Origin: Pseudomonadota bacterium
GTDB taxonomy: Bacteria > Pseudomonadota > Alphaproteobacteria > Rhodobacterales > Rhodobacteraceae
Assembly: GCA_020161655.1 (NCBI GenBank)
Contig: JAIUPC010000006.1
Location: 62,001-126,000, forward strand
Direction of reading: 5' to 3'
Length of the DNA stretch: 64,000 nt
Positions 2,829 to 12,552 of the stretch are shown here, piece by piece (the first letter of the stretch is position 1; each line of letters opens with the position of its first letter). The translations under genes and the position numbers were made by a program. Under the pieces are notes generated by a model. It was not told the origin of the DNA, made no database searches, and saw nothing but the letters and a program-made list of their open reading frames with translations.

Positions 2829-4514
2829 TTAGCGGTCCGAAGACCCCTTCAGCGCCGCGCCGAGGATGTCGCCAAGCGAGGCGCCCGAGTCGGAGGAGCC
2901 ATACTGTTCGACGGCCTCCTTCTCTTCGGCGATTTCGCGCGCCTTGATCGACAGGCCAAGCTTGCGGGTCTTGGAATCGACGTTGGTGACGCGGACATCG
3001 ACGTGATCGCCAACCTGGAAGCGCTCGGGGCGCTGGTCGGCACGGTCACGGCTGAGGTCGGAACGGCGGATGAAGGACTTCATGCCGTTGTAGTCGACCT
3101 CGATGCCGCCTTCCTCGATCGCCGTGATGGTGACGGTGATGACCGAGCCACGCTTCACGCCGTCGATGGCTTCGGAGAAGGTGTCGTCGCCCAGAGCCTT
3201 GATGGAGAGCGAGATACGCTCCTTCTCCACGTCGACCTCGGTGACGGCGGCCTTGACCACGTCGCCCTTGCGGTAGTTCTGGATCGCCTCTTCCCCGCGC
3301 TGGTCCCAGCTGAGGTCGGACAGGTGAACCATGCCGTCGATGTCGTTCTCAAGGCCGACGAACAGACCGAATTCGGTGATGTTCTTGACTTCGCCCTCGA
3401 TCTGCGAACCGACCGGATGGGTTTCCGCAAAGACTTCCCACGGGTTGCGCATGGTCTGCTTGAGGCCAAGCGAAACGCGGCGCTTCGCGGTGTCGATCTC
3501 CAGCACCATGACGTCCACCTCCTGCGAGGTGGAGACGATCTTGCCGGGATGGACGTTCTTCTTGGTCCAGGACATTTCGGAGACGTGGACCAGACCCTCG
3601 ACACCGGCTTCCAGCTCCACGAAGGCGCCGTAGTCGGTGATGTTGGTGACGCGGCCCTTGTGGACCGAACCGATCGGGAACTTCTCCTCGACCGAATCCC
3701 ACGGGTCGGACAGAAGCTGCTTCATGCCGAGCGAGATGCGGTGCGTTTCCTTGTTGATCTTGATCACCTGGACCTTGACGGTCTCGCCGATGTTCAGGAT
3801 CTCGTTCGGGTGGTTCACGCGGCGCCAGGCCATGTCGGTGACATGGAGAAGGCCGTCAACACCGCCGAGGTCAACGAAGGCACCGTATTCGGTGATGTTC
3901 TTGACCACGCCGTCCACAACCTGACCTTCGGTGAGGTTGCCGATGACTTCGGCGCGCTGTTCGGCGCGGCTCTCTTCGAGGATCGCGCGGCGCGAGACAA
4001 CGATGTTGCCACGGCGACGGTCCATCTTGAGGATCTGGAACGGCTGCTTCATGCCCATGAGCGGGCCGGCATCACGCACCGGACGCACATCGACCTGGCT
4101 GCCCGGAAGGAAGGCCACGGCGCCGCCGAGATCGACGGTGAAGCCGCCCTTGACGCGACCGAAGATGGCGCCATCGACGCGCTCTTCCTTGGCATAGGCC
4201 TGCTCGAGACGGTCCCAGGCCTCTTCGCGGCGGGCTTTCTCGCGCGACAGCACGGCTTCGCCGCGGACGTTTTCGACGCGGTCGAGATAGACCTCGACTT
4301 CATCGCCGATGCTGATGTCGGGCGTTTCGCCGGGGTTTGCGAATTCTTTCAGATCGACGCGGCCTTCCATCTTGTAGCCGACGTCGATGATGGCCTGGCC
4401 CGCCTCGATGGCGATGACCTTGCCTTTGACGACCGAACCCTCATCCGGGGTGTCGATCTCGAAGCTTTCCTTGAGGAGGGCTTCGAATTCCTCCATCGTG
4501 GCTTTAGCGCACAT
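2829..4514 (-). CDS. rpsA: 30S ribosomal protein S1
   Basis: Largest ribosomal protein. It binds mRNA leaders and delivers them to the 30S subunit. The 561 residues contain six S1/OB repeats. The first two are diverged (starting SVVKGKVIAIEAG and VDGAIFGRVKGG), the next three are the well-conserved GxVxxITxYGAFVxL type at about residues 195-440, and the sixth is degenerate. This matches the E. coli layout (557 aa). The start at 4514 gives MCAKATMEEFEALL. A sigma-70-like promoter (4685-4713) lies upstream. It sits in the aroA-cmk-rpsA-ihfB neighbourhood. Confidence 0.98.
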   Translation of the reverse strand: MCAKATMEEFEALLKESFEIDTPDEGSVVKGKVIAIEAGQAIIDVGYKMEGRVDLKEFANPGETPDISIGDEVEVYLDRVENVRGEAVLSREKARREEAWDRLEQAYAKEERVDGAIFGRVKGGFTVDLGGAVAFLPGSQVDVRPVRDAGPLMGMKQPFQILKMDRRRGNIVVSRRAILEESRAEQRAEVIGNLTEGQVVDGVVKNITEYGAFVDLGGVDGLLHVTDMAWRRVNHPNEILNIGETVKVQVIKINKETHRISLGMKQLLSDPWDSVEEKFPIGSVHKGRVTNITDYGAFVELEAGVEGLVHVSEMSWTKKNVHPGKIVSTSQEVDVMVLEIDTAKRRVSLGLKQTMRNPWEVFAETHPVGSQIEGEVKNITEFGLFVGLENDIDGMVHLSDLSWDQRGEEAIQNYRKGDVVKAAVTEVDVEKERISLSIKALGDDTFSEAIDGVKRGSVITVTITAIEEGGIEVDYNGMKSFIRRSDLSRDRADQRPERFQVGDHVDVRVTNVDSKTRKLGLSIKAREIAEEKEAVEQYGSSDSGASLGDILGAALKGSSDR

Positions 4515-10969: not shown

Positions 10970-12271
10970 TCAGCCTGCCGCCACCGCCAGCCGGTTTTCG
11001 ACAAAGTCCCTGAGCGCCGCGGCGCTGTCCGCGGCGATCTGGATGGGCGATACTTCGGGAAACGCTTCGGTGAGAATGTCGCAGATCTCGTCCAGGGTGA
11101 GCGGCTCGGCGATGAGGTGCCAGACCGCCAGCGCGCCGGCATTGAGGCGATGGATGCCCTGCCCGGAGGCGTCGGCAAGATAGCGGTCGCCGGCGAGTTC
11201 TACGTCGTGGATGCCGTCGGCTCGGACGTAAGCCGTGGCGGGATCGAAAGCTGCCGCGGGTGCGGTGAAGTCTGCTTCGTCCACCCGCCGGAATGCCGGC
11301 GCGTCCTGGTGGATGGCCGGTTCGTCGGGCCAGTCGGCGAACCTTTGTTCAAGAAATTCCGCCGCCGCCTCCGCCGATCCGTAGGAAAGCCGGTAGGCCG
11401 GAACCGTCGCAAACAGCGCCTCGGTCGTGGCGAGCACTGTCCCGGAATGTACCTCCCGGGCGAAGTTCTGGTGAAGAAGGGCGGCCACGGCATCGGCGGT
11501 GGCCATCGGCGATAGGTCCGGCGCGGCGGCCTCGCGCCGGTCCAGAAAGACCATAGCACCAAGGGCCAGGGCCGTGCCGTGCGCCGGCACCTCCGGCAGG
11601 GAGAGATATTTGTAGCGGTGGTTGCCGTCGCCTTCGTTGCGGGCGACCCAGTCTTGGAAACCTGCGCTGAAACTCTCTGGCACCGGCAGGCGAAGACGCG
11701 GCAGGATGCCCGTCGCATGGCCGAGAAGATGCCCCTTGGCGGAGATGCTCACCGGAAAGAAATCGTCGCTGAAGATGCGGTGACCGCGCGCGGCAAGGCA
11801 GGCGGTCAGTGTGCTTTTGCCAGCGCGGCGGATATTGGGCAGGATGACGAGCCGCCCTGCCACCTCGATGGCGGCGGCATGCAGGCACATCAGCCACTCG
11901 CCCGACCGGTTGAGTTCAAGCGAAAGCTCGACGATCAGGTCGCAGACCGCATCGACGGCGTCATAGCGTCGCTCCTTGCCGGGCATTCCGAGGGTGCTTA
12001 TCAGGTAGCGGTCGTGGCCGTCCGGCCGGATCGTCGCGACCGGTTGCAAAGACGCATCGGCCGGGGCAGTCGTGAAGGGCCAGCCCGGCGCCATGCGCGC
12101 CACGGTGTCGATGATCTCGGCGCAGCCATCAAGAAGGATCGGCGCGGCTAGGCCGGCGAAGCGGAGGTGAAGCGCGGCACTGTGATCACCAACGACAACG
12201 GAAGACCCGCAGGCGGAAACATCCGCCTGCGGGGAGTTGTCTGGCACGTGGGGATCACTCAGGCGCCGCAA
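10970..12271 (-). CDS. HPr-kinase-like protein fused to a PqqD/RRE domain
   Basis: A two-domain protein of up to 433 residues. The middle resembles HPr kinase/phosphorylase: LHAAAIEV (about 130-137), a P-loop N146-IRRAGKST, then [13 protein letters not shown] (162-174), which matches the RGHxxxxDD element of the family. The first P-loop glycine is Asn. The last 90 residues (about 345-433) are PqqD-like: [27 protein letters not shown], then a helix. PqqD/RRE domains bind leader peptides of RiPP precursors, and HPrK-like kinases occur in some lasso-peptide clusters. The start is uncertain: TTG at 12271 overlaps the small Ser-rich gene by 13 nt, GTG at 12247 is the alternative. Substrate unknown; the neighbouring peptide is the obvious candidate. 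Confidence 0.75.
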
Positions 12272-12552
12272 CCCGCGTCGTCGTCGGTCGGGCCGGAGCA
12301 GACGCTCGGGCGGTCAAAGCTGGACGAGTCATCCGGTCCGGACGAGCTGGACGCCCCGGTAGAGCCGGACGACCCGGTGCTGCCGCTGCTGCTACCGCCG
12401 CCATCACCGCCGCTGCCGGAGGAGCCGGAGCCCTTCGCCTCGGCCATGCTGAGGGTGGTCAGGGCTGGCACGGTATAGGCAACGAGAGCAAGCGCTCCGA
12501 GCCGGAAAAGCGCCTTGCGTCGCGAGTTGGGATCAATGATTTCCCGTTTCAT
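12259..12552 (-). CDS. small Tat-exported Ser/Gly-rich peptide
   Basis: Encodes 97 residues from the ATG at 12552 (AAGGA ribosome-binding site). Residues 10-16 are SRRKALF, a twin-arginine motif, followed by a hydrophobic stretch and an AEA site at 37-39. The predicted mature part (40-97) is 58 residues with 20 Ser and many Gly and Asp, in irregular GSSGSTG units, and ends with two cysteines (85 and 95) in an acidic tail, [13 protein letters not shown]. No known family was recognised. The kinase/PqqD gene overlaps its 3' end, so the two are translationally linked. A role as the modified substrate is inference. Confidence 0.7.
   Translation of the reverse strand: MKREIIDPNSRRKALFRLGALALVAYTVPALTTLSMAEAKGSGSSGSGGDGGGSSSGSTGSSGSTGASSSSGPDDSSSFDRPSVCSGPTDDDAGCGA

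Follow-up and report, generated by a model that had tools for sequence, protein, structure and literature searches.

What could connect a small serine-rich peptide carrying a twin-arginine export signal with the protein encoded by the gene that it overlaps, in which a part resembling HPr kinase is joined to a PqqD-like domain? A sequence-only reading of this locus had proposed that the fused domain brings the peptide to the kinase, which would phosphorylate it before export. Following up this proposal by comparing both genes with their relatives, we argue for a two-gene module of pre-export peptide phosphorylation, in which an RRE would dock the Tat signal, the kinase would phosphorylate the repeats of the peptide and the Tat machinery would export the product. 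We give this reading a probability of roughly two in three, and the core of the earlier idea is supported at the level of sequence comparison.

A peptide gene and a kinase-RRE fusion gene

The window (i.e., the whole analysed stretch of 64,000 nucleotides) contains two minus-strand genes located between neighbours that resemble metK and queF (named by eye). The candidate substrate gene (12259..12552, minus strand) has an ATG start and codes for a Ser-repeat peptide of 97 residues, consisting of a leader, henceforth referred to as the head (residues 1-39; 12436..12552, minus strand), and a Gly-rich core with 20 serines (residues 40-97; 12262..12435, minus strand). The second gene (10970..12271, minus strand) codes for a 433-residue HprK-like kinase-RRE fusion protein and starts either with GTG at 12247 or with TTG at 12271, in which case the two ORFs overlap by 13 nt. 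Both ORFs exist as the sequence-only reading had described them, with the peptide upstream of and overlapping the kinase ORF, and its account of the peptide (97 residues, a twin arginine and a 58-residue remainder with 20 serines and two cysteines) was also accurate. Between the peptide stop and the start of kinase homology lies a perfect hairpin (12-bp stem, 4-nt loop; 12206..12233, minus strand), which falls inside the kinase ORF if TTG is the true start. A 12-bp stem was reached by none of 60 mononucleotide shuffles, and perfect stems of at least 8 bp were found in 13 of the 58 loci tested (58 of 71 peptide-kinase intergenic stretches, namely those of 35 to 200 nt). The window hairpin is a possible attenuator, perhaps lowering the expression of the kinase relative to that of the peptide.

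The fusion protein was modelled with AlphaFold2 (AF2) from a 40-row alignment (mean pLDDT 90.3, pTM 0.86). Its C-terminal RRE (PqqD) domain (residues 345-433; 10973..11239, minus strand) matched PF05402 at residues 369-428 (33.6 bits vs. a gathering cut-off of 23.4), and in the AF2 model it adopts an RRE fold with three strands (355-376) and three helices (378-425), with block pLDDT values >90. When a profile of 64 kinases (alignment A2) was compared with solved structures, the best matches were the lasso RRE TbiB1 (E 1.3e-10) and a PqqD-family protein (7.6e-9), with further matches to a lasso PqqD chaperone (1.7e-6) and TfuB1 (5.2e-6); an NCBIfam lasso PqqD model matches 33 of the 64 kinases at E<=0.01. 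The PqqD assignment made from the letters alone thus stands, as the Pfam cut-off is passed and lasso RREs are found by profile search.

For the kinase part (about residues 33-313; 11333..12175, minus strand), which has a predicted HprK/PEPCK-like fold, Foldseek found matches to PEP carboxykinases (PEPCK) and HprK/P, and the A2 profile matched HprK 3tqf (E 4.4e-4) after the lasso RREs. The single-sequence scores are low, namely 17.7 vs. a cut-off of 33.3 for Pfam Hpr_kinase_C, 58.4 bits vs. 200 for TIGR04352 (HprK_rel_A) and 15.9 bits vs. a curated cut-off of 240 for TIGR00679 (bifunctional HprK/P). The probable likeness to HprK is therefore weak by single sequence and clearer by profile and predicted fold. 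Residues invariant in 64/64 kinases include H131 (11879-11881, minus strand), G151, K152, S153 and the HprK-type Asp pair D169-D170 (11762..11767, minus strand), as well as R192, R194, P196, Y220, R245, A303 and W384. The P-loop (residues 145-154; 11810..11839, minus strand) is atypical, its first glycine being absent; this position is Gly in 16 of the 64 kinases and Asn (25), Ala (8), Asp (6), Glu (5) or Ser (4) in the others. The earlier description of a kinase-PqqD fusion hence holds for both of its parts, with PqqD over the Pfam cut-off and the kinase HprK-like by profile and fold, but its P-loop is one without the first glycine.

By spacing, the conserved kinase residues correspond to positions reported as important in BsfK, except for G163 (PMC10368454). 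Counted from the Lys, the first P-loop glycine position is that of G163, one of the BsfK residues whose change lowers activity (PMC10368454), and the missing glycine is the main reason why our confidence is not higher. An alternative is that the P-loop fold works without phosphorylation, ATP use serving to keep the peptide bound or to set it free, or that serine is modified in another way. The replacement of the first glycine in 48 of the 64 kinases and the low scores against HprK models would fit this alternative, which we nevertheless consider quite unlikely given that the His, the Lys, the Ser and both Asp residues are invariant in 64/64 and that LppK, BsfK and the paeninodin-type kinases, which are HprK-like and RRE-partnered, are reported to phosphorylate peptide serines (PMC13381572, PMC10368454).

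Co-occurrence, surroundings and spread of the pair

Relatives were drawn from a set of 61 relatives, 39 named loci and three genome sets (394 from the family, 385 from the class and 398 from the phylum). The 39-locus set (query A1) is biased to [RHW]R[AS]GKS P-loops because one short pattern was used, and a single-protein query against genome contigs found no relative. The resulting 101 kinase loci comprise 72 RRE-fused ones (including one pair of identical kinases, L054 and L129) and 29 non-fused ones (among them L095, which has a frameshift, and three that all come from genome G052). Heads were detected with an HMM in which the six columns of a motif discussed below (YxxPxL) were masked. A head was found upstream and on the same strand in 71 of the 72 fused loci, with 3 to 336 nt (median 76) between the peptide stop and the start of kinase homology; in the 72nd (L045) the head is present in a run-on frame. 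Heads also lie upstream in 15 of the 29 non-fused loci, and the remaining 14 loci belong to 13 genomes, 12 of which have heads elsewhere at E<=2e-8 (G411 has none).

Within the family (394 genomes), the fused kinase occurs in 29 genomes and a head at E<=1e-7 in 30, with an overlap of 29, both searches being assumed from the equal number and matching handles to cover the same genomes. In the head-only genome (G240) the fetched stretch ends inside a kinase gene. Kinase matches were found in 34 family genomes, from which the count of 29 excludes four partial matches (G085, G089, G091 and G198; E 1e-11 to 1e-14) and the non-fused G411; ten genomes with weak heads (best E 1.6e-5 to 8.5e-4) likewise lie outside the count of 30. 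One genome counted among the 29 (G167) carries the frameshift at L095, which splits the kinase into two frames and leaves the peptide intact.

At class level, heads were found in 27 genomes (of 318) and kinase matches in 41 (of 385); 26 of the 27 are also in the kinase set, and the kinase match of the 27th, the complete genome G526, is only partial (E 1.6e-5). Heads are present in 33 of the 41 kinase-matching genomes (the 26 together with G570, G728, G768, G783, G791, G787 and G792), and none was found at E<=1e-3 in the other eight (G516, G597, G607, G655, G722, G735, G757 and G770), whose kinase matches are weaker or partial (best E 2.5e-35). The match of G498 is also weak (3.4e-30), yet a head is present, and no head was found near the still more distant loci L131-L138. 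Given that eight of the 41 class genomes are headless, distant kinase relatives are not bound to the head: the association of peptide and kinase is close in the fused family and weakens as relatives become more distant. Kinase homologues without the peptide, which the sequence-only reading had named as evidence that would speak against it, were not found for the fused form (71 of 72 loci plus the run-on frame of L045; 29 of 29 genomes) and do occur among the distant relatives (8 of 41 class genomes).

The surroundings of the pair differ between genera. We classified 79 flanking proteins of relatives (79 of 127 nearby ORFs, from 240 picked, with peptide ORFs, short ORFs and near-duplicates omitted) and found no family in more than 9 of them, the commonest being the tRNA-synthetase set (9), GGDEF (8), response regulators (4) and S8 peptidases (3). 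The remark that this would be an unusually small system is in keeping with this lack of any recurrent flanking family (at most 9 of 79). Peptide and kinase were absent within 1.5 kb either side of metK in 9/9 congeners, where queF comes next in 6/9 and trmB was found in 7/9, and one congener (G021) has the pair elsewhere in its genome. The pair is also present in named Alpha-, Beta- (Limnobacter) and Gammaproteobacteria, a recurrence that argues against chance. One could still suppose that a Tat peptide and a kinase with an unrelated signalling role are adjacent by accident of gene order, as some copies have response regulator or sigma factor genes nearby and some weaker kinase relatives lack a head. 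Against the genome-level co-occurrence of the fused form, the heads found elsewhere in 12 of the 13 genomes with a headless non-fused locus and the retention of the pair in unrelated surroundings, we find this explanation barely credible.

In a tree of 102 kinases (built with a quick method), a Limnobacter copy falls among Paracoccaceae, and Guyparkeria and Halothiobacillus copies group with Halomonadaceae; these placements suggest transfer, and the pair may be a cassette. Six plasmid records (Paracoccus and Shinella) contain a relative annotated as 'PqqD family protein'. In the record of a Paracoccus marcusii plasmid (L246, about 2976-3430), the reading frame of the peptide gene is lost inside the head. 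Elsewhere, a small ORF near an HprK-type kinase ORF (L026, 794-1021) has a twin Arg, a hydrophobic stretch and two Cys (by eye) and might encode the target of a different HprK system.

A motif in the head and repeats in the core

The head of the window peptide contains the sequence features of a Tat substrate, with a twin Arg at residues 11-12, a hydrophobic stretch and a probable AEA cleavage site (AxA) at residues 37-39 (all by eye). It matches the head profile at E 1.1e-16 and is the only head in its own genome at E<=1e-3. These features make the peptide a probable Tat export substrate, as had been read from the sequence; what that reading missed is a Y-x-x-P-x-L inside the same signal. The proposed RRE docking motif, Y26-T-V-P29-A-L31 (YxxPx[LIVFM]; 12460..12477, minus strand), lies within the hydrophobic stretch of this signal.

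The masked HMM, which is blind to the motif, allowed us to count it independently. Y-x-x-P-x-[LIVFM] was present in 71/71 heads upstream of fused kinases and in 15/15 heads upstream of non-fused kinases, in both cases 14 to 21 residues past the twin Arg, and in 18 of 19 additional head matches in the same loci. By contrast, among ordinary Tat signals from the genome that contains the window (22 TIGR01409 matches, 21 of them readable), 0 of 21 had the full motif and 4 of 21 the bare Y..P. An alignment of 60 heads (A4) also has invariant Y, P and RR columns; this is not evidence, as its sequences had been selected with a pattern requiring these residues. A cruder count based on the nearest Tat-like frame found YxxP in 63 of the 70 peptides found in 72 loci and was replaced by the masked-HMM count; all seven misses were shadow frames, with real peptides present (six loci and L099). 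YxxP is among the published RRE recognition sequences for lasso peptides (PMC12710340), and the form [Y/W]xxPx[L/V/I/A/F/Y] is reported in PMC13381572. Since the motif is embedded in its hydrophobic stretch, the Tat signal seems to double as a RiPP leader.

Possible docking was probed with the natural DNA of locus L048, where the kinase follows the peptide in the same frame, by modelling the product of reading through the stop (alignment A6). In this tethered AF2 model, the head is ordered (block pLDDT 65-85), residues 4-22 forming a helix and residues 36-39, directly past Y31-V-A-P34, a strand; core residues 41-110 are not ordered (pLDDT 33-36). As no other strand precedes residue 119, the strand must pair with the folded part, and Foldseek matched the tethered model to the TbiB1-leader complex (target TM 0.80, E 1.4e-3). 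The model, for which the tool does not give the pairing partner of the strand, is only suggestive of an RRE docking the head.

The cores behind the fused-system heads were compared in 70 of 71 peptides (L075, with masked residues, was left out). Their Ser content is 23.3%, vs. 5.1% in the 79 flanking proteins, and the combined share of Ser and Thr has a median of 26% and spans 11% to 57%. In 43 of the 70 cores, no residue is more enriched than Ser; in the other 27, that place goes to Gly, His, Tyr, Arg, Lys or Pro, and several cores have only 10-13% Ser. A unit with Ser or Thr is seen at least three times in 65 of the 70 (e.g., SGS, SEP, SSNSGP, SRPSY or SRG), 4 have no repeated unit and 1 has a unit lacking Ser and Thr. 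The hydroxyl residue of the unit is kept across lineages and the remaining unit residues vary; in L092 and L093, Thr takes the place of Ser in many units. In the non-fused branch, many cores are not Ser-rich, and several are short and contain two Cys, the first of them in a P-[ST]-x-C that closely follows the signal. This P-[ST]-x-C recalls the single S3 target reported for LppA (PMC13381572) and BsfA (PMC10368454). We therefore dropped Ser repeats as a feature of all relatives, non-fused cores being often Cys-containing and Ser-poor. In genome G428, a separate head peptide with SYSRPSYSRP repeats (L205, 776-1222) lies on a contig other than that of the kinase. Genomes with a non-fused kinase and a separate RRE have head peptides away from the kinase (L209-L228); several of these peptides occur as tandem pairs, and several contain P-[ST]-x-C together with a second Cys.

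These cores bear on how many residues would be phosphorylated. With the same docking, the kinase could load a single serine with several phosphates, the Ser repeats acting only as a flexible spacer; such multiple phosphorylation of one residue is reported for LppK, on S3 of its substrate (PMC13381572), and for paeninodin-type kinases, and several peptides of non-fused genomes do have P-[ST]-x-C instead of repeats. We regard this as unlikely for the window system, given that Ser or Thr is part of the repeated unit in 65 of the 70 fused cores and that Thr can replace Ser (L092, L093). The two cysteines near the C-terminus of the window peptide, shared by part of the relatives, could alternatively point to a lanthipeptide-like route, in which phosphate is an intermediate that another enzyme eliminates to give dehydro residues reacting with the Cys. 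The cysteines singled out by the sequence-only reading are not general, though: Cys is absent in many fused systems, and we dropped two Cys as a defining core feature. With many cores lacking Cys and no lyase or cyclase among the 25 flanking families listed (79 proteins; 32 rarer one-protein families lie outside the list), we consider this route very improbable, mainly for want of a recurrent lyase. Phosphorylation of Ser or Thr in the repeats remains our preferred reading.

The head is not restricted to small peptides, and some genomes have two or three heads. In genomes of the family, proteins that combine a head, a Ser-rich stretch and a PepSY-like end are encoded downstream of the kinase; in a PepSY scan of seven such proteins, L072 was over the cut-off, L040 and L070 were below it, and no match was found in L033, L034, L041 and L079. 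In L032, L034 and L040, the gene next after the head-bearing PepSY-like protein codes for an OmpR-type response regulator. Heads also occur on S8 subtilases (L059, L201, L202, L203, L204, L207, L246 and L247), followed by a low-complexity stretch that is Ser/Gly-rich in most; the one in L201 lies on a contig other than the kinase's. A sigma factor gene sits beside the cassette of S8 peptidase, peptide and kinase on a Paracoccus plasmid (L246, 1032-1547) and a Shinella plasmid (L247, 1098-1616). The heads on S8 subtilases and PepSY-like proteins are the basis for reading the head as a general tag: the kinase-RRE might read YxxPx[LIVFM] and phosphorylate the Ser-rich stretch behind it, before export, in Tat substrates including both the peptide and the larger head-bearing proteins (S8 subtilases and PepSY-like proteins next to two-component genes). 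This extension is tentative, and we put it somewhat short of even odds; were it true, the export signal itself would be an address label for modification.

The proposed module and its relation to known systems

The computations establish the pair and its co-occurrence, the motif, the folds of the two domains, catalytic residues that are conserved save for one glycine, and the Ser/Thr repeats. From these we infer docking, phosphate transfer with the number and place of its sites, Tat export and any function of the product as follows. The C-terminal RRE would bind Y-x-x-P-x-[LIVFM] inside the twin-arginine signal. While the peptide is still in the cytoplasm, the tethered HprK-like kinase would use ATP to phosphorylate Ser (or Thr) of the repetitive core. 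Before the Tat machinery can take up the signal, the RRE would have to let go of it; a signal peptidase would then cut the signal off, leaving a phosphoserine-repeat peptide in the periplasm or outside the cell, where our guess is that it binds metal ions or the cell surface. Several points count against the module, including the first P-loop glycine being Gly in only 16 of 64 kinases, the low-Ser cores in the fused and non-fused branches, the head of G526 with its weak partial kinase match, the eight headless class genomes, and the required release of the RRE ahead of Tat export.

If the module works as proposed, it would be among the smallest RRE-guided peptide modification systems, with one substrate gene and one enzyme gene, and it would show that a peptide kinase can use an export signal as its leader. 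HprK-type peptide phosphorylation would then extend from lasso peptides and LPPs to Tat-exported Ser-repeat proteins of Pseudomonadota, raising the mechanistic question of how Tat takes over a signal to which an RRE is bound. Genes annotated as 'PqqD family protein' and 'hypothetical protein' become a testable enzyme-substrate pair.

Among published systems, the LPP (Linear Polyphosphorylated Peptide) system of Bacillota (LppA, LppK and LppB; PMC13381572) shares with the window system an HprK-like kinase and a lasso-type RRE whose substrate is a linear precursor with YxxP in its leader, without a macrolactam cyclase. LPP is described as having a discrete RRE, a SpI-like leader peptidase, an NTP transferase, an MsbA-like exporter and phosphates on one Ser (PMC13381572), whereas the window system belongs to Pseudomonadota and has two genes, an RRE fused to the kinase, a Tat-signal leader and a Ser-repeat core. 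None of the SpI-like peptidase, NTP transferase and MsbA-like exporter was recurrent near relatives (one ABC_tran protein in 79), and the main text of PMC13381572 contains no word starting with 'Tat', 'Pseudomonadota' or 'Proteobacteria'. Lasso-peptide kinases (BsfK and the paeninodin type), which work with a B1 RRE, share the HprK-like kinase and the YxxPxL leader, and the RRE is reported to speed phosphorylation (PMC10368454, PMC5067487). The window system differs in its single kinase-RRE protein, its predicted Tat export and a core in which no lasso features were seen; no lasso cyclase (macrolactam synthetase) or B2 protease was among the 25 flanking families listed (32 rarer ones lie outside the list), and the window neighbours include no lasso or LPP partner genes (by eye).

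Bufferins (MNIO enzymes with a DUF2063-RRE; PMC12452194) also combine a RiPP precursor bearing an export signal with an RRE fused to another domain, but their enzyme is reported to be oxidative and not a kinase (PMC12452194); for DUF2063/DUF2282 pairs, Sec-type signals and no specific RRE motif are reported (PMC12710340). The related partners TIGR04352 and TIGR04353 (HprK-related kinase A and PqqD_rel_X) have matches at E<=0.01 in 63/64 and 13/64 kinases; at 58.4 vs. the cut-off of 200, the window protein is not a TIGR04352 member (the model being compared by name and score). By the features tested, the window system is neither an LPP nor a lasso cluster and, by score, not a member of TIGR04352 or TIGR00679. 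Among the literature matches listed, mostly outside subscription journals, we found no fused HprK-RRE and no Tat signal acting as leader. Judged from its sequences, the window system is probably a variant of RRE-guided, HprK-like peptide phosphorylation, whose closest published relatives are the lasso-peptide kinases and the LPPs and from which it would differ in its fused RRE, its Tat-embedded tag, its two-gene size and the reuse of its head on other proteins.
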